Shown here: one piece after another, positions 46,814 to 58,683 of the stretch
Layout of the letters: every line of letters starts with the position of its first letter
How positions within the stretch are numbered: position 1 is the first letter of the stretch
NCBI RefSeq assembly: GCF_000305935.1
Contig: NC_018870.1
Coordinates: 1,845,001 to 1,909,000, forward strand
Source of the DNA: Thermacetogenium phaeum DSM 12270
GTDB taxonomy: Bacteria; Bacillota; DSM-12270; Thermacetogeniales; Thermacetogeniaceae
DNA length: 64,000 nucleotides
Direction: 5' to 3'
Made by a program: the position numbers and the translations under genes
Notes under the pieces: model-generated
The model's database searches: none
What the model saw: only the letters and a program-made list of their open reading frames with translations
Told to the model about the DNA's origin: nothing

Positions 46814-47821
46814 CTAATCGCTGACATCAATTCTGGTCATCATCCCTCCCGGAAACTGGTCATTGTTCACCAGGTGATGGTATTCTCTATCGTACAGGTA
46901 GTATTGCCCGGGAGTGGTCGGAGCAATGACGATATCGGCACTTTGCCCTGAACCCAGGGTAATGCCCGTTATTTCATAGGTGGCATCCAACGACGGGCTT
47001 GCCAGGGGGAAGCCATCCTCGGCAATCACCCTGCCCACAAGACCGCCCAGATAAAAAGTGTGGTTCTGAAAACCGGCATTGATAACCCTTAACAGCACCC
47101 GTTGCCCAACCCGGCAGCTTACGCCGGACCCATACGGCTGGCCGGAGTTATTGTTGCCGTTAAGGGTATCGGGAAAACAGCGTCCGTTAATCACCCAGTA
47201 GTCAGGTTTGAACCTCAACATATTGTAGTAGGCTCCGGGGACAACGCTATTGTGCATTGTGCTATCGATTTCGGCCAGGACCAGTACCTTTTCAACGTCA
47301 TAAAAAGAACCCGTCCCGGAACCATATGCCGTCTTATAGTTGGGATGACCCGGCGTATTATAGCCGGGTGGCCTCACCACAATAACGCCGTAAATACCCA
47401 TTTGCACCTGTTTTTCGGAGTTGAATCCGCTTTCATACAGATAGATGCCGGGTTTTACAGCTTTAAACTGATAGACTATGAACAGATCGGAGGATTCGTC
47501 CAGATAATCGGCCAATGAGATCATGATCCTTCCTGAATATTGGGGCTGGACGGGCTGAGGGATAAAAGGGCCGCCCGGAAATTTGGTTACCATCACATTT
47601 TCCTGCCCGGGAAAAATCAGGGACAGCGGTTCCCCTAAAGGCTTCATGAAATTAGCAACTAAGTTTACAACCACTCGGTCGCCGGCCACAGCCTCTATGA
47701 AGGGACCCGGAGTTTGGGGAAAGCCGAACAATTCACCGGTTAAACCCCAAAAGGGGATGCTTTTGCCAGGTAAGGACAGCAACCCGGCGGCAACCTGAAA
47801 ATTCTTGATAACAATCGCCAT
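46814..47821 (-). CDS. Multicopper oxidase-like protein C, ligand-poor
   Basis: A 335-residue two-domain cupredoxin protein of the multicopper oxidase family. Both copper motif sites have decayed: domain 1 has FPGQ (70-73) where HWHG is expected and YESGFNSEKQ where the HCH motif should be, and domain 2 keeps only isolated histidines (NHTF, and YHH near the end). It therefore cannot bind a trinuclear cluster alone and may be a structural subunit. There is no signal peptide. GGAAAGGAGCGTC precedes the ATG, the same leader as for protein A. It is the last gene of the operon. Confidence 0.8.
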   Translation of the reverse strand: MAIVIKNFQVAAGLLSLPGKSIPFWGLTGELFGFPQTPGPFIEAVAGDRVVVNLVANFMKPLGEPLSLIFPGQENVMVTKFPGGPFIPQPVQPQYSGRIMISLADYLDESSDLFIVYQFKAVKPGIYLYESGFNSEKQVQMGIYGVIVVRPPGYNTPGHPNYKTAYGSGTGSFYDVEKVLVLAEIDSTMHNSVVPGAYYNMLRFKPDYWVINGRCFPDTLNGNNNSGQPYGSGVSCRVGQRVLLRVINAGFQNHTFYLGGLVGRVIAEDGFPLASPSLDATYEITGITLGSGQSADIVIAPTTPGQYYLYDREYHHLVNNDQFPGGMMTRIDVSD

Positions 47822-47844
47822 GCATAGACGCTCCTTTCCGCAGA

Positions 47845-48999
47845 TTACTTCAGCACCCCGATATCAGGGGAAAGCGAAGGATAAATGGCAATCCAGGTCA
47901 TCATCCCGCCGGGAAATTCACCCCAGTTGGTTATCTGCAGCTCTTCATGGGAATGCAGCATAAAGTAATACTCACCGAACTCATTGTACGAAATAACCCC
48001 TACCGGGATATCACCTTTTACCCCGAAGTAAGGACTGCCGCTCCACATCGTCCATCCGGCATCGCCGATACCCATATTCCTCAAGTTGGGTAGGGTTGTA
48101 GGGATGGGGTTATCAGGGGTGAATCCCAAGCCTTCCCAGCGATAAATCAGATCGTAGGTCTGACCCGCACCGACCAGGACGGTGAAGCGTTGATAAGAGA
48201 GATCCGTACCGCCATTCCTCAGCAGCCTCCCATCCTTTCCGATTACCCTGGTATGTGCGCCATGAGGGTGAAGGGGGTGGTTATCAACGCCGGCACCGAT
48301 ATACCGCATCAGTATCTTTTCACCAGGCTGCCCCATGACCATGGAACCATACGGCTGGTGAGGAAGGTAATCCACGTCGTCCATCATCATTGTGTCAACG
48401 GCACAACGTCCATTCAAAGTCCAGTAGCGGGGTAGATATCTATTAACAAGATACGGCCTGCCCTCTTCCACGGCCTGGTGCAGTTGGGGGTCAATTTCCC
48501 CTGTTATCAACAGGTATTCCCGCTCAAATTCCGTATCCGTCCCGGCGCCGTATGCCGTCCTGTATTCCCTGACATCCGGATTGTAATCGGCAGGCCGCAC
48601 CACCAGGGCTCCATACAACCCCATAGGAACCTGTTTGTGGGGGCTGGAGCCACTCTCGTATACGAATGTTCCGGGATGTGTAGGTGTAAACGTATATGAA
48701 ACCGTTCCTCCCGGTTCGGCATGATTGACAAAGGACTTCAACCGGCCGTTGATATATTGAGGCTGAACCGGTCGTTCCTCCACCATGACTGCCGTTTGGC
48801 CCGGAAAGAAAACGGAAACAGGTTCGGACAGAGTATTGAACAGGTTAACGGTCACCGTTTCCCCCTGCTTAGCAATAATATGAGGGCCCGGCAGCAGCGC
48901 AGGACCGGTTTCCTCTTTTGCAAAACCCCAAAAATAGATGCTGTTGCCGTCTGGGGTGCTCAAATAGCCTTCCTTGGCCCAAAGGTTTATTACAGGCAT
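47845..48999 (-). CDS. Multicopper oxidase-like protein B, domain 2 ligands only
   Basis: A 384-residue two-domain cupredoxin protein. Domain 1 has lost its ligands (FPGQ at 65-68, YESGSSPHKQ at about 114-123). Domain 2 keeps HPLHPHG at 241-247 and HSH at 349-351, that is two HxH pairs for a trinuclear site, but serine stands where the T1 cysteine should be. It is thus the complement of protein A. There is no signal peptide. ATG 48999 follows GGAGAG. The spacing to its neighbours is about 23-60 bases. Confidence 0.82.
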   Translation of the reverse strand: MPVINLWAKEGYLSTPDGNSIYFWGFAKEETGPALLPGPHIIAKQGETVTVNLFNTLSEPVSVFFPGQTAVMVEERPVQPQYINGRLKSFVNHAEPGGTVSYTFTPTHPGTFVYESGSSPHKQVPMGLYGALVVRPADYNPDVREYRTAYGAGTDTEFEREYLLITGEIDPQLHQAVEEGRPYLVNRYLPRYWTLNGRCAVDTMMMDDVDYLPHQPYGSMVMGQPGEKILMRYIGAGVDNHPLHPHGAHTRVIGKDGRLLRNGGTDLSYQRFTVLVGAGQTYDLIYRWEGLGFTPDNPIPTTLPNLRNMGIGDAGWTMWSGSPYFGVKGDIPVGVISYNEFGEYYFMLHSHEELQITNWGEFPGGMMTWIAIYPSLSPDIGVLK

Positions 49000-49058
49000 C
49001 TTGCTCTCTCCTTTTATTCTCATAGGTGTTACTGGTTATGCCGGCACCCGTTCCACGT

Positions 49059-50057
49059 CTAAGGCGCCGGCAATACCCTGATTTCCGTGATCATCCCGCC
49101 AAACGATTTCCCCGCATTGGTATTCTTGTGCCAGTTGCGGTTATAAAGGGGATAGATTCCGGCAGACGGAGCAGTAAAGATCGCATCAACAGTTTGCCCC
49201 GCAGCAATAAAGATTGCATTCCTCCAGCGGCTGAGGTCTTCACCGTTATATCCCCGCAGCTGCCGGGCATCAAGCCCCACGACCTTCAAAGATATCCCCA
49301 GCACCTGGATGCTGTGCTGCTGATATCCAAGGTTTACAAAACGCAGCAACACCTTCTCCCCCTCGTAAGCCTCAATGAGGGATGAATAAGGTTGCATAGG
49401 CAAAGACGGGTCAGCGGCGGGTCTGACCGTGTCCGGATAGCTCCGCCCGTTGATTAACCAGTATTCCGGGCTGTATTCCGTCCAATCGAACTCCTGGACA
49501 TTTTCCAGCAGGTAATGGGGTTCGGCATCCAGTTCGGTCAGAAAAACTAGAGCTTCCCTGTCAAAGGCGGTGCTTTCGTCATTGTAGGCGAACTTCCCTC
49601 CCAGATCTATTTCCAGCCGGGGACGTACCGTCAGGGGACCTACCATCCCCATCTGGATATGCTCTACAGGTTCAAAATGGCAGTGATAGATGTAGGTACC
49701 GGGGTCCAGCGGCCGATAATAATAGGTGAAATCCCGGCCTACCGGAACGGAGATCGACGCCTCGGGAACTCCATCCCATATAGGAATTTGATTGGGAAAA
49801 CCATGCCAATGTATGGTATGGGTGTCATCCAAATCCGGCCGGTTCGGAAAACCCAGGTTAGTCAGGGTTAAATAAACCTCATCACCCTCGTAGACTTGCA
49901 GCAACGGGGCAAGCAGGGTAGCCCTGCCGCGGTATTCAAAAATCCGGTCTTCAGGAACACCGGTAATATCCACAAAACCAAATATGTAGTGCCTGGTACT
50001 GTCGGGCATAACAACCCACCCGTCTGTTGCACCAAAACGCTTTCTTACTGTAGCCAT
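49059..50057 (-). CDS. Multicopper oxidase-like protein A, domain 1 ligands with T1 site
   Basis: A 332-residue two-domain cupredoxin protein. Domain 1 has HTIHWHG (H80, H83, H85) and HCH 125-127 followed by H133 and M138. This supplies a complete T1 set (H80, C126, H133, M138) and two HxH pairs of a trinuclear cluster. Domain 2 keeps only single histidines (H248, H310). In two-domain laccases the cluster forms at the interface of neighbouring subunits, so protein B could supply the missing pairs. No signal peptide is seen. ATG 50057 follows GGAAAGGAGCGTC. Confidence 0.85.
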   Translation of the reverse strand: MATVRKRFGATDGWVVMPDSTRHYIFGFVDITGVPEDRIFEYRGRATLLAPLLQVYEGDEVYLTLTNLGFPNRPDLDDTHTIHWHGFPNQIPIWDGVPEASISVPVGRDFTYYYRPLDPGTYIYHCHFEPVEHIQMGMVGPLTVRPRLEIDLGGKFAYNDESTAFDREALVFLTELDAEPHYLLENVQEFDWTEYSPEYWLINGRSYPDTVRPAADPSLPMQPYSSLIEAYEGEKVLLRFVNLGYQQHSIQVLGISLKVVGLDARQLRGYNGEDLSRWRNAIFIAAGQTVDAIFTAPSAGIYPLYNRNWHKNTNAGKSFGGMITEIRVLPAP

Positions 50058-50078: not shown

Positions 50079-53000
50079 CTAAGGAACGAGCATGTGCTCA
50101 TAGGCCCCGATATCGTAGCCCGTTCCCTGGGGCCTGGTATTGCCATCGAAATCTTTTTCCGGGGCATTAAAGGTTTCAGTCTCTCCGGCGACCCTGTCGA
50201 TACCCCGGTCGATCACCGGGGAACCCCCGGTAAGATGGTAATCACCGGTTAGTTCGGGATCAACGGTCACTATCCTGACCGACTTGAAGTCCGGTTCCAT
50301 ATTGAATGCTACAGCCGTTACCTCAGTATCGTACTCACTCACAAATTCCGGATCCACGTAGATATTGTTGCTGCCTCCGTCATACGATCGTGACAAGCTG
50401 CAGTATTGAGGATTAAACAGAGCAGGGCCCCCAAAAACCTCTAAATCCATAATGTTAACAGGTTGCGGGTCCCCGGCGGCCCCTATGCCGCCGATGCCCC
50501 CCCTGCCGTTGTTCAGATCCTGATTAAAAGTACCGGCTCTGTTATCCCAGAAAATATTATTAAACAGGACCGGATCGCTGTAACCGGGAGAGCCGGGGTG
50601 CACTACATCGAGGTAAGCCCGGAAAGCAGCACTGTGAGGTTCACTTACAAGCCCGGCGCCGTGAGGCCTGCCGTCGCTGTCCTCCGCCGTGGCAGTAGTG
50701 ATGTTCTTGGCAATGGTGTTGTTCACAATTACGACGTTGGAGGCATCATCAAGAGCTACGCCACCCCCCAGGTCGGTGGAAACATTGTTGACAACAACGT
50801 TGTTGTAAATGTTGATCCGGTAATCCAGGGGCTGCAGCAACCGGATCCCCCCGCCGTCATCGTTGGCAAGGTTGCCCTGGATGAGATTATTATAGATATC
50901 GACCTCCCCCGAGCCGGCAGTCAGTGTTTCCGGGGGGACGGGCTGTTCCCCGCCCACAAACACACCTGCACCCTCGTCAAAGGAGGCGTTAAACAGCACA
51001 CGATTATGGTGGATCTTACCACCGGGGCTGTAACCGTAGTGGGATATGCCTCCACCGTATTCAGCGGAGTAATTGCCGCAGATATCGTTATAAGCGATTT
51101 CGTAGTTGTCGGCACCGTTGAAGATACCGATACCACCGGCCAGGCTGATGCCGCCGTTGTTCAGGATGCGGTTGTGGTGGATGTAAATGTTATCATTGTA
51201 ATTGTCTCCGACATAGGCCGTTCCGATGGTAATAGCCCCGCCGAAACCACCACCGTTGCTCTGGATAATGTTATTGCTGATAACCAGATAACTGCAATGT
51301 GCATTAACATATATTCCGCCGCCCTCTTCACCCCTTGCCCCGGTGATCCTGAAACCGTCCACCTGGGGTCTAAAGGCACCGCTGAACGCCCCTGCTCTGG
51401 CAACCACAGTTAATACCTGGCCCCTGCTTATCTCTTTTACCCGGTCTGGTGGCACCAGTTCCGGCCCGTCAAATTCAATACCGGACAGTTTGTCAAGCCA
51501 CCTGTCGCGATAAGTTAGAAAGAAGCGGCCATCGATGACGGTTCCCGCAACTGCGGATCCGTCCGGCCTGATGCCTCCGGGTCCCCGACCCTGGAGCTTG
51601 ACGTTCTTGTACAGGATCGGGTTTTCGTAATAAGTTTCTGCTGATACGACAATAATTGCCCCGTCAGGCGCACTGTCTATAGCATCCTGAATAGTGGTAA
51701 AATCCTGTGTGCCATCCTTTTTCACCGTAATGACGGGCGGCCAGTATACCCCCTGCCGGCGCAGGTGAAAGGTGATGCCTGTCGGGCTGGTTTTTCCGGC
51801 GGCGTTGGTTACCAGCAGTTGCGTAGGGCCCGGGGGTACGGCATTGAATCCCCGGGGAACAAGGACACGAATGAGCCGGTCGGTCCACTCCAGGATGTCG
51901 ATTTCCTTCCCGTTCAAGGTTACCTTACCGGGAGAATCCCCGAAACCCGTGCCCAGTATGGTAACAGTCCGGTTATCATCATTCTGGTGCATCACGTTTG
52001 CCTGGATACGGCTGACCCGGAATATTTGAGGTGTATCTGCCGGAACAGCACATTGCGGGGGCTGCGAGAATTGTGCTCCGGGCGTTCCGACAAAAGCCGT
52101 GATCGGGAATAAGGCCACATCGGCATAAGTTGTTTTCCCGGGCCAGACATCAAAAACCATCTTCAGGGTCTGGTAATTAGGGTTGTAGTGCTCATTGGGA
52201 TTGTCCGGATCCCCAGGATCGTTCCCGATGACCTGGTACATCCCCGGGGCCACTCCGGAGGGGGTAGGTACATTACGGGTGTAGGTGGACGGTAACAGCA
52301 CCTCGAAGATGCCGTTGACATCGGAATGAACCGTGGTTATCAACCTGCCGGCAAAATCCCTGATGCCCACGGGGGTGTTGGGGATACCTCTTTTTTCACC
52401 GTAGTATATGAAACCAGGATTGGTCTCGAGGTTGACATCATCCAGCAGGAAGCCAACAATGCGGCCGGGAATGGGAACATCGGTATACAGGAAGAAGTCG
52501 GCTGTGGCGTTAAGCCCTTCGGAAACCCTTACGATCTTCTTGGTGGTATCAATGCCGGGAGGTGCCGGGTAGTAAGGCGGGGGCGCCATGCGCATGAGAA
52601 AAGTTTGGGCACTTCCTGCGAATTCATCCCCCTGATCGGTATTGACGGAGCCATCCCTATCAATCGCCTTATATCCGGTGGGTGGTACCACCTCCACGAT
52701 ATAAGTGCCGGAAGGAAGCGGTATTTCTACCGCATCGGGGTGGCTGTAATAAGGATCCCAGCAGGTCTCAAAGGCGTAACCGCCGTCAAACCCCCCGGGT
52801 CTGATCTGGTTGGAGATGTTGGGAACCTCGGTACAGTTCTGGTCAACGTTGCCGTCGGGATCCATGCACCCGGTGGGGTGTTCCCAGGCCTCTGTAGTAA
52901 CGGTGTTGATAAGGTTTCCCTGAACCACTTTGCCGTCCGAATCCGTAATTGCTGCGTAAAGGTTAAGGGTTACGTTCGGAATCCCGGGTTCGTAATCTTC

Positions 53001-54653
53001 GGCGATTGCATACCTGGGGTCGGTCTCGTTGCGCATGGTGGCATAATAAACCATGCCGGAAATACCCCCGTTCTCTCCCTTTTTGTAAACCCGTTTGCCC
53101 CAGTCAATACGGTTGGTTTTGGCCGCCCATGTCAGCTCGGCCAGGGTTAAAACATCTGTGTAGGTCTGAGAACACCTGACGTAATTACCGCGTGCATCAC
53201 GGCACAAAACGGCGGGGTTCACAGGATCAGGCACCGGGATGCCGTAATCGGGCGTAGCTGTTGCCCCGGTATATCCCAGACGGGTAAAACCCACCTCTGC
53301 CACAGCAAATCGTTCCAATTCAAAAACCTCATCTAAGCTATAATCCCCGTGCATATCCGTTATCGTCCGGTACTGAATACTGCCGTCTTTAAAACGGGTG
53401 CCAACCTCAACACTAGGGACACCACTTTCCCCGGGGTCACGGACTCCGTTCCCGTTGCTGTCGTTAAATACGGTGCCCTTGATATACCCGAACCATCTGG
53501 GTATACCGATATCACCCATAGCGACCGTTTCACCGCGGCCCACCTGAACAGTGCGAAAAGAGATAATATGATCCAGAGGTTCATCCCAGATAGCCATTTG
53601 ATAAAGCCCCGGTGGAACGTTCTCGATGGTAAAGTTGCCGTTGCCGTCCCCGCGCCCGGTATAAACCTGCTGGTCGTTCGCTCCGATGTCGCTGAGCGCT
53701 ATCCAGGGGCGGTCCACGGGATCCCCCAGAGTCAGCGGTCTGAAAGGAGGGATGAATTCAATGATGGTGCGCACCCTGCCGGTAATTCTCCCTGTCTCCC
53801 AGGGGCGTGGCGGGCCGAATTCCATCGGCCTGACAAACCCTATCCATACCAAGGGCATCCGGAAACCCTCCCTGGGGCTGTAACCGTCATTACCTTCCTC
53901 TATCCAGACATCTATTGTATGAGTCCCTTCAATGGTAGTCGTTTGGATCCAATCCGTGCCGTCCGGCGGAATGGCCTGCACCCCGTATTTTCCGGGAGGA
54001 AGGTTGTCGATCAGAGCGTCCCCGTTACTATCAGTAAGGATTTTTCCCCCTGTACCCGGAACAGGAACGGGTTTACCTGTACCGGGGTCAAGAATCAAGT
54101 TGCCCGAGGCATCCCGTTCATACTCCGTACCAAGCGGGTTACCGAAATAGTCTACAGTCACCTCACCGACTGCATCTGTAATTATTACTCTGAACCCTTC
54201 CAACCCACTTTCCAGCGGCACGTCGTCCTCTCCGTTAACCGGCCTGTTGTCGTGAAAGACATGCACCCTTATTCTGGAAAGGGGTAAAGGATTGGGATGC
54301 AATTTAATTTCCACAGTTTTGTCGGTACCGGTCGTTGTCACCCAATTACCGCCCAACTTGTAACCTGGAGCCAATACAGAAACCAGGTATCGGCCGTTGG
54401 GGAGTGACACCACCGGTTGTGAGGTATCCGAAGCTTCTCCCACAGCAACCACCGGACTGTGACTGGCCCCCGGTCTTAATGAAGGAAACAAACTCGGATC
54501 ACGTTCTTCTTCAGGAAGTTCGACCTGGGGATCGCCGACGTTGTTTTCGTTGACAATGTATTTGAATGTTAAAACGGGGACACCGGTGATAACATCTCTG
54601 GCTATAACAGTAAGTTTGCCGTTATCCACATTTCCGTCATGAGGACCGTTCAC
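50079..54653 (-). CDS. Giant repeat scaffold protein with SdrD-like, IPT/TIG and beta-helix domains
   Basis: A 1524-residue protein. The N-terminal ~870 residues hold several Cna-B/SdrD-like domains; the most complete has a calcium-loop motif NDSNGNGVRDPGE near 395. An IPT/TIG domain follows at about 880-960 (ILGTGFGDSPGKVTLNG), then a right-handed beta-helix to about 1480 with repeats such as IYNNVVVNN, ending in the DIGAYEH motif. Such folds are normally exported, yet there is no signal peptide, transmembrane segment or sorting signal. GTG 54653 follows GAGGAGG, eleven bases away. It leads the operon with the three copper proteins. Confidence 0.85.
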   Translation of the reverse strand: MNGPHDGNVDNGKLTVIARDVITGVPVLTFKYIVNENNVGDPQVELPEEERDPSLFPSLRPGASHSPVVAVGEASDTSQPVVSLPNGRYLVSVLAPGYKLGGNWVTTTGTDKTVEIKLHPNPLPLSRIRVHVFHDNRPVNGEDDVPLESGLEGFRVIITDAVGEVTVDYFGNPLGTEYERDASGNLILDPGTGKPVPVPGTGGKILTDSNGDALIDNLPPGKYGVQAIPPDGTDWIQTTTIEGTHTIDVWIEEGNDGYSPREGFRMPLVWIGFVRPMEFGPPRPWETGRITGRVRTIIEFIPPFRPLTLGDPVDRPWIALSDIGANDQQVYTGRGDGNGNFTIENVPPGLYQMAIWDEPLDHIISFRTVQVGRGETVAMGDIGIPRWFGYIKGTVFNDSNGNGVRDPGESGVPSVEVGTRFKDGSIQYRTITDMHGDYSLDEVFELERFAVAEVGFTRLGYTGATATPDYGIPVPDPVNPAVLCRDARGNYVRCSQTYTDVLTLAELTWAAKTNRIDWGKRVYKKGENGGISGMVYYATMRNETDPRYAIAEDYEPGIPNVTLNLYAAITDSDGKVVQGNLINTVTTEAWEHPTGCMDPDGNVDQNCTEVPNISNQIRPGGFDGGYAFETCWDPYYSHPDAVEIPLPSGTYIVEVVPPTGYKAIDRDGSVNTDQGDEFAGSAQTFLMRMAPPPYYPAPPGIDTTKKIVRVSEGLNATADFFLYTDVPIPGRIVGFLLDDVNLETNPGFIYYGEKRGIPNTPVGIRDFAGRLITTVHSDVNGIFEVLLPSTYTRNVPTPSGVAPGMYQVIGNDPGDPDNPNEHYNPNYQTLKMVFDVWPGKTTYADVALFPITAFVGTPGAQFSQPPQCAVPADTPQIFRVSRIQANVMHQNDDNRTVTILGTGFGDSPGKVTLNGKEIDILEWTDRLIRVLVPRGFNAVPPGPTQLLVTNAAGKTSPTGITFHLRRQGVYWPPVITVKKDGTQDFTTIQDAIDSAPDGAIIVVSAETYYENPILYKNVKLQGRGPGGIRPDGSAVAGTVIDGRFFLTYRDRWLDKLSGIEFDGPELVPPDRVKEISRGQVLTVVARAGAFSGAFRPQVDGFRITGARGEEGGGIYVNAHCSYLVISNNIIQSNGGGFGGAITIGTAYVGDNYNDNIYIHHNRILNNGGISLAGGIGIFNGADNYEIAYNDICGNYSAEYGGGISHYGYSPGGKIHHNRVLFNASFDEGAGVFVGGEQPVPPETLTAGSGEVDIYNNLIQGNLANDDGGGIRLLQPLDYRINIYNNVVVNNVSTDLGGGVALDDASNVVIVNNTIAKNITTATAEDSDGRPHGAGLVSEPHSAAFRAYLDVVHPGSPGYSDPVLFNNIFWDNRAGTFNQDLNNGRGGIGGIGAAGDPQPVNIMDLEVFGGPALFNPQYCSLSRSYDGGSNNIYVDPEFVSEYDTEVTAVAFNMEPDFKSVRIVTVDPELTGDYHLTGGSPVIDRGIDRVAGETETFNAPEKDFDGNTRPQGTGYDIGAYEHMLVP

Positions 54654-54736: not shown

Positions 54737-54764
54737 TAATATATGAATCAAAGCGTTAAACGGT
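54737..54764 (-). promoter_or_regulatory. Candidate sigma-K promoter of the copper-protein operon
   Basis: On the minus strand ACC (54764-54762) is followed after 16 bases by CATATATTA (54745-54737), which fits the sigma-K pattern AC-N16/17-CATANNNTA used in the mother cell for spore coat genes. It lies about 85 bases before the start codon. Confidence 0.45.
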
Positions 54765-54952: not shown

Positions 54953-55918
54953 TCAGCCCACTTTGGCCTCCCACTTCCCACACCGACCGCCCCATCGGGC
55001 GATCACTTCGCCGTTCTGATAGAACTGCACCACTTCGCACATGTTGGGGCAGCCCTTGCAGATAAAGCTGCGCGCCTGGAATTTGAAATCGGTCACCTCG
55101 AACCCCTTGAACTTCGTAGCGCCGCCCGTGCGCTGCACCGCCTCCCGGGCCAGGATTGCCGCCCCCAGGGCGCCCATCACGGAAAAATACTTGGGAACGA
55201 TCACCTCCTGCTGGAGGGCCTTCTCAAACGCTCGCTTCATCCCGGCGTTAGCGGCGACACCCCCCTGGAAGGCGATAGGAGGGAGGATTTCCTTACCCTT
55301 GCCGACATTGTTCAGGTAGTTGCGCACCAGCGCCTCGCAGAGGCCGGCAATAATATCCTCCACGCTGTGGCCGAGCTGCTGCTTGTGGATCATGTCGGAC
55401 TCGGCAAAAACGGCGCACCTCCCGGCGATCCGCACCGGGTTCTCCGATTTCAGCGCCAGTTCCCCGAACTGCTCAATGGCAATGTTCAGACGGGCCGCCT
55501 GCTGGTCCAGAAAGGAGCCGGTTCCGGCGGCACAAACCGTATTCATGGCGAAGTCGGTGACGATCCCGTCCCGCAGAATGATAATCTTGGAGTCCTGCCC
55601 TCCGATCTCCAAAATGGTCTGCACACCGGGGACAAACCGGGAGGTGGCCACCGCATGGGCGGTGATTTCGTTTTTGATAACATCGGCTCCGATCATAACG
55701 CCTGCCAGATGCCTGGCGCTTCCCGTCGTACCCGCAGCCCGGATCACCACATCACCGGGAACCTGGTCTTTAAGCTGTTCCATGCCCTCCTGGATAACCC
55801 TGATCGGCTGTCCTTTGGTCCTGATATACAGGGAGGCCAGCACTTCATCTTGTTCATCGATAACAACTAAGTTGGTGCTCACCGAACCCACATCGAGCCC
55901 CAAAAATCCGTCTCTCAC
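54953..55918 (-). CDS. BadF/BcrA-type CoA-dehydratase activase
   Basis: A 321-residue ASKHA ATPase of the 2-hydroxyacyl-CoA dehydratase activator family. The nucleotide-binding start GLDVGSVSTNLVV and the cluster region CAAGTGSFLDQQ (about residue 129) are typical. A further cysteine set, CKGCPNMCE near 288, follows at the C-terminus. Activases use ATP to inject one electron into a dehydratase or reductase. No dehydratase gene is beside it. It overlaps the previous gene by four bases. Confidence 0.87.
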   Translation of the reverse strand: MRDGFLGLDVGSVSTNLVVIDEQDEVLASLYIRTKGQPIRVIQEGMEQLKDQVPGDVVIRAAGTTGSARHLAGVMIGADVIKNEITAHAVATSRFVPGVQTILEIGGQDSKIIILRDGIVTDFAMNTVCAAGTGSFLDQQAARLNIAIEQFGELALKSENPVRIAGRCAVFAESDMIHKQQLGHSVEDIIAGLCEALVRNYLNNVGKGKEILPPIAFQGGVAANAGMKRAFEKALQQEVIVPKYFSVMGALGAAILAREAVQRTGGATKFKGFEVTDFKFQARSFICKGCPNMCEVVQFYQNGEVIARWGGRCGKWEAKVG

Positions 55919-57048
55919 CAGCTATTCCTCCCAGCAGGCGAACTTACTGCAAGTCGCTTTTCCCTAGCTTTTTTCTGCTCTCGCTTCCTCTGAAGCAAAT
56001 CCAAAAAGGCCTCCAGCCTCGTTAAGACACCGGTTACCGCCGTCTGCTCATCGATAAAAATGGTCATGACGGGGATCCCCAGTTCTCTGCTGACACGGGG
56101 GAGAATACCTTTGGCCACGATCTCGGGGATGCAGGAAAAGGGCGCCAGCTGAATGACGCCGTCATAGCCGTCCCTGGCATAAAGCACCGTCTCCCCGATG
56201 CTGTTGATGCCGTGGCCGCCGATCATTACCCCTAGATAGGGATGGGCAACTTTATGGATATCCCGTTCCCCGACATTCCCCTCCTTGACGACATTCTTCT
56301 GAGTGTAAGAAGTCAGCCAGATGGAGCGGTTGCTATAAACCCCTCTCTCACCCAGCAGCTTCTGAATGTAAAAATTCACCGCAGGCTCCAGAACGACGTA
56401 AATCTCCCCCACAATCCCGACCCTTAAGGGATCGCGGCTCCTGTCCTGGGGCACCCTGGAGATAAGCTTCCTGGCCTCGTGGCGCGCCTCCTCAATCTCC
56501 TCCAGAGTATAGGCCTGGTCGAGCATGGAGAGCCCCTTCTTAAAGGCCTTTTCCGCCTCCCCCTTGACGGTCTCATAGGGCATGACCTCATACATCAGAT
56601 ATTCTATTTCATCAATGGCTTCAAGCTTGGTATACCCCTTTTTGATCAGCTGCCAGAAGCGGCGCCAGGACATGCGCCGGGGCTTGACCATCCTCAGCTT
56701 CTTGATAAAGTCCAGGATATTGGAACGTGGCGGGTCGAAGATCAGCACCGTGAAGTTGCACCCGAGTTCATCGAGGATCTTCTGGTGCATGACGCCGTAG
56801 TACCCCGCCCTGCAGGGGCCAACGCCACCTGAGGATATCGCCATCTCCGCCCCCATCTCAATGGTTTCCAAATAGGTGCCCAGCAATACCTTGAAGGGGA
56901 TGCAGGCAAACTCCGGCGCATACCGGACACCCAGGTCGAAGGTCCTCTTGCTGGGTTCCGGCGGGATCACCGGCTCATAACCCAGGTCGCTGATTAACAT
57001 TTTAAAAGCAATATAAGAGTAGCCCATGTGCGGAAAGGTAATTTTCAC
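55915..57048 (-). CDS. DUF2229-type activase-associated protein
   Basis: A 377-residue protein of the family associated with CoA-substrate activases (DUF2229/HgdB-like). The motif GGVGPCRAGYYG near residue 75 and ACIPFK near 48 hold conserved cysteines that may bind a cluster, and QLAPFSCIPEI near 307 adds another. In other Clostridia these domains are part of one large protein with BadF units; here they are separate. It overlaps both neighbours by four bases (ATGA). The reaction is not known. Confidence 0.8.
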   Translation of the reverse strand: MKITFPHMGYSYIAFKMLISDLGYEPVIPPEPSKRTFDLGVRYAPEFACIPFKVLLGTYLETIEMGAEMAISSGGVGPCRAGYYGVMHQKILDELGCNFTVLIFDPPRSNILDFIKKLRMVKPRRMSWRRFWQLIKKGYTKLEAIDEIEYLMYEVMPYETVKGEAEKAFKKGLSMLDQAYTLEEIEEARHEARKLISRVPQDRSRDPLRVGIVGEIYVVLEPAVNFYIQKLLGERGVYSNRSIWLTSYTQKNVVKEGNVGERDIHKVAHPYLGVMIGGHGINSIGETVLYARDGYDGVIQLAPFSCIPEIVAKGILPRVSRELGIPVMTIFIDEQTAVTGVLTRLEAFLDLLQRKREQKKAREKRLAVSSPAGRNSW

Positions 57049-58043
57049 TCCAGCCCTCTTCTCCTTTTCAACATATCTACAAAAGCCTCCAGACGGGTCT
57101 GGATGCCCCCGGCCCCAGTTTCCTCATCGATGGAAACGGCAAGAAAAGGCACCCGCCCCCGCTCCCGGGCTGCATACTCGAGCAGCCTATCCAGCATGGC
57201 ATCAGGGCCGCATGCAAATGCCGTAACGTGCACTATTCCGTCGACCAGACCTCTGTTCAGATAATAAAAGGCGGCATGCAGGGCGCGGTTGGAATAGTGC
57301 CAGAACATATGCTTCGGCATTACCCCTGCTTCCCTCAGCAGCGAACGGGGCGGTACCATTTCGGCAGTGAGCACAGACACCCCGAGGCTTTCCAGGCGTT
57401 TAATCAGGTCAAGGTTGGTGAAGCGATCATAGACGGTGTAGGGATAACCCAGGACGGCCAAAGAAATGCCCGACCGGCCCCTCTTCGCGGCAACAGTTGG
57501 ACGTTTCTTTAACCCCTTCTCTAGGTACTCCATGGCCTTCTCCGGCATATTCCCCTGTAAGAGCAGCTGCTGATAGCGCCGGAAAACACCCCTGGCACGC
57601 CAGTAGGCCCGAACGACGGTGGAGAAATCGGCTCTAAACCTCTCTCCGAGCTCCCTGCAGATGCGAAAAAGCTCGAATCTTCCCCGAGCCAGATCAACCC
57701 GGGTTTCCAGCACCTCCGGCAGGCCGCTGATGGAGGCTCTGAGGAGGTCGGGAAGCCCCCGGAATTTCGGGCAGAAGGTTTCGGTCCCGAACCTGCGGAC
57801 GCTGAGGAGGCGAGGCACAAAAAGAAGATCGACCTTATCCTTGATCTCCATGACGTGCCCGTGATACAGCTTGATGGGGATGCAGGCATCATTAACCGCC
57901 TCCGCGACTCCATCATCAAGAGTCTTTTGGGTGGTAGGAGAGGAGACCACCACCTGAAGCCCCAGCTCCTCGAAAAAGGTTTTCCATAAAGGATAATACG
58001 AAAAATAAGCCAGATACCGTGGAATACCAACCCGGACCGGCAT
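57045..58043 (-). CDS. Second DUF2229-type activase-associated protein
   Basis: A 332-residue protein of the same wider family as its neighbour. It opens with MPVRVGIPRYLAYFSYYPLW and has DACIPIK near residue 65 and AFACGPDAMLD near 260, whose cysteines could hold a cluster. The end (DEETGAGGIQTRLEAF) is close to that of the neighbouring protein (DEQTAVTGVLTRLEAF), so they share a C-terminal domain. ATG 58043 follows GAGGAGG. It is the gene after tetR in the operon. Confidence 0.8.
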   Translation of the reverse strand: MPVRVGIPRYLAYFSYYPLWKTFFEELGLQVVVSSPTTQKTLDDGVAEAVNDACIPIKLYHGHVMEIKDKVDLLFVPRLLSVRRFGTETFCPKFRGLPDLLRASISGLPEVLETRVDLARGRFELFRICRELGERFRADFSTVVRAYWRARGVFRRYQQLLLQGNMPEKAMEYLEKGLKKRPTVAAKRGRSGISLAVLGYPYTVYDRFTNLDLIKRLESLGVSVLTAEMVPPRSLLREAGVMPKHMFWHYSNRALHAAFYYLNRGLVDGIVHVTAFACGPDAMLDRLLEYAARERGRVPFLAVSIDEETGAGGIQTRLEAFVDMLKRRRGLE

Positions 58044-58059
58044 GGCGGCTCCAACCTCC

Positions 58060-58683
58060 TCAGCACCTGCAGGAATTTGCTTCGACACCTTTCAGCCAGA
58101 TATCCAGAAATTGTGCCAGCTCTCTTTCTCCATCTGCATTCTCCCGGTCCTCCGCCATCTCCTTCCAGACAAGGTAGCCCCAGAGAGCGGCCAGCAGCGA
58201 AAGGGCCATCAGATCGGCATCGAGGCGGCGAAAATCGCCGGCCACCTGCTTTTGCTTGATCGGTTCTCTGAGCAGGTCGATAACCGGCCTGGCAATCTTC
58301 TGATACATCGCTTCTCTGACTTCGGAGTGGAACTGGGCTTCGTAAAAAAGCAGCTTCAACATTGGAAGGTATTGTTGAATTGAGCTTAACTGATCCTTGA
58401 TGAGGCGGATTAACAGCTGAGGATCGCTCTCGCAGCCCTTCCTCTCAATTATTCCGGCCAGGGAAAGCGCAATTTCCGGCTTTTGGAAATTGTTGACCGC
58501 CTGCAAGAGAATACCTTGAAGGATCCCCTTCTTGGTGCCGAAATGACGGAAGACTGTTCCCTCGGCTACGCCTGCCTTTTGGGCGATCTCGCTGGTAGTC
58601 GCCCCTTCAAAGCCCTTCTCTGAAAAGACCTTAATAGCAGCTTCAATGATCTTTTTTTGGGTACAGTTTAAACCGGAACTCAT
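58060..58683 (-). CDS. TetR family regulator
   Basis: A 207-residue TetR/AcrR repressor with the HTH near residues 25-46 (TTSEIAQKAGVAEGTVFRHF). The C-terminal domain is helical and resembles regulators of fatty-acid or acyl-CoA metabolism, in line with the activase genes downstream. ATG 58683 is chosen, although the GGAGG upstream is rather far; a long N-terminal extension in frame has no support. A perfect palindrome and a consensus promoter lie upstream, so it very likely represses itself and the whole operon. Confidence 0.9.
   Translation of the reverse strand: MSSGLNCTQKKIIEAAIKVFSEKGFEGATTSEIAQKAGVAEGTVFRHFGTKKGILQGILLQAVNNFQKPEIALSLAGIIERKGCESDPQLLIRLIKDQLSSIQQYLPMLKLLFYEAQFHSEVREAMYQKIARPVIDLLREPIKQKQVAGDFRRLDADLMALSLLAALWGYLVWKEMAEDRENADGERELAQFLDIWLKGVEANSCRC

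Follow-up and report, generated by a model that had tools for sequence, protein, structure and literature searches.

Two-domain multicopper oxidases (2dMCOs) are trimers whose trinuclear site (TNC) takes its ligands from domain 1 of one subunit and domain 2 of its neighbour; those of type C have the T1 copper in the N-terminal domain (PMC13151041). For ceruloplasmin and its relatives, the published scheme starts from three equal TNC sites, two of which were lost after fusion (PMC3600357). MnxEFG is an operon-encoded complex of spore formers (PMC5622069).

Here we analyze a window of 64,000 nucleotides from Thermacetogenium phaeum DSM 12270 (contig NC_018870.1, positions 1,845,001 to 1,909,000), whose 2.94 Mb genome is a single contig. 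We focus on a minus-strand run of four genes, U, A, B and C, whose features are as follows (positions within the window).

50079-54653, minus strand: protein U, about 1524 aa, directly upstream of A, with Pfam SdrD_B, carboxypeptidase-regulatory-like, TIG and beta-helix matches
49059-50057, minus strand: protein A, 332 aa, two cupredoxin domains, with the T1 site and the domain-1 half of the TNC
49800-49820, minus strand: A motif HTIHWHG (T1 H80; TNC H83 and H85), aligned with HTIHWHG of 3g5w
49644-49685, minus strand: A motif HCHFEPVEHIQMGM (TNC H125 and H127; T1 C126, H133 and M138), aligned with YHCHVNVNEHVTMRGM of 3g5w
47845-49023, minus strand: protein B, 392 aa from the longest open reading frame, with the domain-2 half of the TNC and without T1
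48999, minus strand: likely start of B, at its second Met with a plausible ribosome-binding site ahead, giving 384 aa
48259-48279, minus strand: B motif HPLHPHG (H241; TNC H244 and H246), aligned with the domain-2 HAIHTHG of 3g5w
47947-47955, minus strand: B motif HSH (TNC H349 and H351), aligned with the domain-2 HDH of 3g5w
46814-47821, minus strand: protein C, 335 aa, a paralogue without copper ligands in which the fold is retained

By sequence comparison, A, B and C are certain to be full-length paralogues (identity 30% for A-B, 28% for A-C and 34% for B-C; E from 1e-33 to 6e-61), and Pfam recognizes each of them as a multicopper oxidase (A through Cu-oxidase_3, 57 bits). In a sequence search of the PDB the best match of A is 3g5w, the Nitrosomonas europaea blue copper oxidase (E 4.7e-18), and domain 1 of A aligns with both 3g5w and the metagenomic two-domain laccase 2zwn, each of which has, like A, two cupredoxin domains and T1 in domain 1.

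Domain 1 of A holds H80, H83, H85, the H125-C126-H127 triplet, H133, M136 and M138, and the only histidines beyond it are H181, H248 and H310. Domain 2 of B bears HPLHPHG and HSH (241-247 and 349-351 when counted from the second-Met start, 249-255 and 357-359 in the numbering of the longest open reading frame), and the few histidines in its domain 1 fall off the ligand positions. A listing of the His, Cys and Met residues of C contains neither set. This inventory agrees with an earlier note on this DNA, whose numbering of B is valid with the second-Met start. In the aligned domain-2 columns, A reads HSIQVLG ... NRN, B reads HPLHPHG ... HSH and C reads HTFYLGG ... DRE; in domain 1, the column of the A HCH reads YESG in both B and C. 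The T1 set (two His, Cys, Met) therefore lies in the N-terminal domain, as in type C, in A alone and not in B or C, and the eight TNC histidines are divided, four in A and four in B. Summed over the three proteins there is exactly one T1 site and the histidines of one TNC, split between domain 1 of A and domain 2 of B just as the earlier note had counted; as in six-domain multicopper oxidases, there is one TNC among three two-domain units. Since no paralogue holds all eight TNC histidines, we regard A-B-C as a variant rather than an ordinary type C 2dMCO. For annotation this is a warning: considered in isolation, each of A, B and C would be labelled an incomplete or inactive oxidase.

A, B and C are likely to assemble into a hetero-oligomeric two-domain multicopper oxidase, in the simplest case a 1:1:1 trimer, that has one active centre. 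The heterotrimer is what we infer by analogy with solved two-domain oxidases: because their TNC sits between domain 1 and domain 2 of the next subunit, domain 1 of A would pack on domain 2 of B, where H83, H85, H125 and H127 of A would join H244, H246, H349 and H351 of B. The predicted cyclic order is the one in which these two domains meet, as the reverse order would join no two halves. A reducing substrate would deliver electrons to the T1 copper of A, from which they would pass through H125-C126-H127 and reach the A/B seam, where the cluster would reduce O2 to water. The other two seams (B domain 1 with C domain 2, C domain 1 with A domain 2) would be metal-free, so that the part of C, drawn from the same analogy, is probably to complete the ring.

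We looked for the set in 84,980 species genomes (8 matches, among them Desulfallas sp. Bu1-1 and Peptococcaceae and Desulfotomaculum MAGs), 101 relatives, 398 genomes of the phylum and some smaller classes. Among the 398 phylum genomes 31 match, 17 of them with a full-length B at E < 1e-180. Conservation was scored in 22 A sequences, all taken from genomes in which B is also present, and in 22 B sequences. They span many families within a single bacterial phylum and include some close relatives, and in G083 the set lies on two contigs. Gene order is A-B-C with short gaps in every set assembled in one piece, and at all loci the three are open reading frames with their own starts and stops, not six domains in one chain. 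A candidate three-gene fusion in another genome was rejected (an open frame of 1086 aa in G319 reflects overlap with the U reading frame), leaving none. Defence-system models gave no match.

Every ligand of A (H80, H83, H85, H125, C126, H127, H133, M138) and every ligand of B (H241, H244, H246, H349, H351) is present in 22/22 sequences, and M136 of A, beside the T1 ligand M138, is invariant too. The other paralogues are consistently replaced at the ligand columns, often by fixed residues: the C126 column is Ser in B (22/22) and C (25/25), and the H133 column is Gln in the same 22/22 and 25/25. Because the ligands are invariant and the equivalent positions are consistently replaced in the other paralogues, the partition is not one of random decay. 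The partition is identical in every intact set, and random ligand loss, the pattern that the earlier note had set against its own proposal, was not found. Vestigial histidines occur in four B sequences (at the column of A H125) and in three C sequences each at the H244 and H349 columns, as expected if the ancestor was complete. Separately, one domain-2 histidine is invariant in all paralogues (A H248, 23/23; B H241, 22/22; C H254, 25/25); A and C keep it though they have no copper site there, and most complete members of the one-chain H family, described below, have Val.

One might instead see in A, B and C structural cupredoxins of the spore or cell surface whose leftover ligands are relics. 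The tight linkage with the giant repeat protein U would suit such a role, as would the entirely ligand-free C and the decay of the set in three genomes (G183, G377 and G105); relics, however, would vary, and thirteen ligand positions are invariant over roughly 30-40% divergence. We regard this reading as barely credible.

The genome G061 bears directly on whether A and B share a site. It carries A and C next to each other on a 114 kb contig and is the sole B-less locus with an intact A; at the sensitivity used, B was not found anywhere in this genome. Here A reads HTIYWEG and YHCYFETVEHLQMGM, so that three of the four TNC histidines are lost (H83Y, H85E, H127Y) and H80, C126, H133 and M138 are retained. 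In A accompanied by B, TNC histidines are changed in 0/88 alignment cells, with the caveat that these cells are non-independent and that G061 is one lineage. By sequence divergence, A of G061 has also evolved unusually fast relative to C (0.45 for A against 0.48 for C, a ratio of 0.94, compared with 0.63-0.75 in 20/20 intact sets). This co-loss is predicted if A and B share the site, unlike the case of independent A and B sites, and we take it as evidence for sharing from the sequence of one genome. The proposal of the earlier note that one centre is divided between A and B is thus well supported by evolutionary evidence, from the invariant partition and from G061; the physical complex is the part that we infer.

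The same data bear on the possibility of separate homo-oligomers, with A a blue copper protein that carries electrons and has an additional metal site, and the HxxHxH and HxH of B binding a different metal. A homotrimer of A would indeed keep T1 intact, and G061 shows that an A with T1 alone can persist without B. Against this, the halves that A and B have kept complement each other exactly and lie on opposite sides of the known TNC seam, the TNC histidines of A are kept in 22/22 sequences with B and mostly gone in the sole intact A without it, and B matched no metal-site family other than multicopper oxidases and nitrite reductases. We therefore hold separate homo-oligomers to be very improbable, and continue with a centre shared by A and B.

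A maximum-likelihood tree resolves A, B and C as three clades, each with support of 97-100, and joins B and C as sisters; a fourth clade is formed by one-chain relatives of 510-560 aa, the H family, from genomes within the same phylum (loci L010, L011, L014-L016, L068 and L070-L076). The H proteins combine four copper motifs on a single polypeptide (HTxHxHG, HCHxEASEHVQMGM, PxHxHG and HNHDDYKVTNNGVYPGG) and, with all four together, look like complete oxidases; judged by these motifs they are probably type C-like. The monophyly of A, B and C, with B and C as sisters, makes the ligand losses ancestral, and the tree places the duplications and the losses of site halves before the spread of the set within the phylum. 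Drawing on this, the ancestor was probably a homotrimer, a type C-like oxidase with three equal sites, and triplication would have been followed by reduction to the one A/B site. Three decayed sets also lack B: in G183 (L091) A is frameshifted, in G377 (L090) C stands alone behind a truncated U, and in G105 (L092) there is only a C fragment. With A frameshifted or missing, these are uninformative on the partition.

The place of C is a question of its own, since the centre could be real and C lie outside the oxidase, in an A-B assembly (A2B, AB2 or a larger ring) with C a structural protein, perhaps together with U. After all, A and B suffice for the site, and C is ligand-free and the fastest evolving of the three (mean divergence 0.43-0.56, compared with 0.28-0.40 for A). 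But solved 2dMCOs are trimers (PMC13151041), and C retains the trimer-forming fold, is missing from none of the intact sets and stays beside A in G061 despite the loss of B. Furthermore, A, B and C have correlated pairwise distances (r 0.92-0.94 over 20 sets, about 0.93 for C with A and B), the expectation for co-inherited partners. An oxidase without C thus seems unlikely to us. On the basis of its co-inheritance, its conservation and its NirK/2dMCO fold, C would be the natural completion of the trimer, in line with the spacer role that the earlier note suggested.

We also ran AlphaFold2 on natural in-frame read-throughs, using locus L044, where the three genes share a frame and the stops were read as Gly or Ser. 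The individual units agree with known folds: the A orthologue has 3g5w and 2zwn as its best matches (Z 26.0, 270 residues aligned to 3g5w), the C unit matches NirK, 2zwn and 3g5w (Z 25-26), and the B unit matches 6vow (Z 25.2), so that by fold matches each of A, B and C has two cupredoxin domains. The A-B-C read-through (1086 aa, 15-row alignment) reaches a pLDDT of 64 and a pTM of 0.46. Its best Foldseek matches are the six-domain ceruloplasmin, factor VIII and MnxG (9bxa), with a global TM of about 0.31 and an rmsd of about 19 A, and at these values it does not reproduce the ring. It is, however, a weak test, because a ceruloplasmin-like chain would need the order B-A-C for domain 1 of A to contact domain 2 of B, and because the alignments are shallow. 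In the A-B read-through (pTM 0.48) A folds well, domain 2 of B folds poorly, and A and B have no reliable placement. A 56-row alignment of single chains and fusions was dropped because MAFFT had stacked B and C on A.

Protein U accompanies the oxidase closely. Nearly all intact sets have its orthologue immediately ahead of A (54-84% identity), and where the set has decayed it is absent or truncated; U is absent from G061, and its orthologue is absent from the B-less locus L039. Apart from U, the window and the other loci have essentially no flanking genes in common. Further upstream of U, at 54953-58088 on the minus strand, we note by eye genes resembling 2-hydroxyacyl-CoA dehydratase activase (BcrAD/BadFG type) and related proteins. 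Inspection of the U, A, B and C sequences shows no hydrophobic segment at the N-terminus. About 110 bp before the start of U lies one further feature.

54737-54764, minus strand: candidate sigma-K-like promoter ACCGTTTAACGCTTTGATTCATATATTA, of the form AC-N17-CATATATTA

The strict pattern precedes U at 4/17 loci, the window included, compared with 0.22 in shuffles, a weak, suggestive sign in the sequence of a sigma-K-like promoter, which, if real, would fit late mother-cell expression. A link to sporulation through gene content was tried and rejected: SpoIVA is found in 17/18 A-B-C genomes and also in 28/28 compared genomes without an intact set, so that a marker present in nearly all carriers and all compared non-carriers does not discriminate. 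We offer a spore-surface location as an idea only. On balance we lean towards the fuller picture of an obligate A-B-C heterotrimer, an unfused and separately evolved counterpart of ceruloplasmin, that would be bound to U and possibly sit on the spore surface of anaerobes.

How does this set compare with the systems already described? Type C 2dMCOs and A have in common the HxxHxHG ... HCHxxxxxH...M layout, and A superposes on them at Z 26. The difference is that 3g5w has all its ligands on one chain, whereas here they are divided over two of three paralogues, which predicts one centre per trimer. NirK has the two-domain fold and a metal site between subunits, and is close to C as noted above. 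It is a homotrimer with a mononuclear type 2 site, whereas A has paired HxH and HCH motifs of a trinuclear site. The set does not belong to the nitrite reductases, given HWH and HCH in A, HPH and HSH in B, and a score of 41 bits against the NCBIfam equivalog, whose cut-off is 296. In searches of the open-access literature, we found no report of a heteromeric multicopper oxidase with a TNC common to different paralogues.

The likeness to MnxG, from the MnxEFG manganese oxidase of Bacillus spores, lies in the single TNC of a six-domain chain (PMC3600357); MnxG differs in being a single 138 kDa multicopper oxidase chain, with the TNC between D2 and D3 and T1 in D2 (PMC3600357). Ceruloplasmin and hephaestin resemble the predicted complex in having three two-domain units with a TNC at just one seam (D1/D6; PMC3600357). 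In ceruloplasmin, however, a single fused chain carries T1 in domains 2, 4 and 6, and the ceruloplasmin and MnxG layout in general places T1 in the second of a unit's two domains (PMC3600357), whereas here the genes are separate and T1 is in domain 1 of A. Because the T1 domain differs and the genes are unfused, the set would have arrived at a single TNC independently. In A-B-C the loss of all but one site apparently took place among separate genes, which opens the unfused stage to study, alongside one-chain relatives that look complete and sets in partial decay within the phylum; it would be a clear-cut example of how complementary losses of half-sites turn a homo-oligomeric ring into an obligate heteromer.
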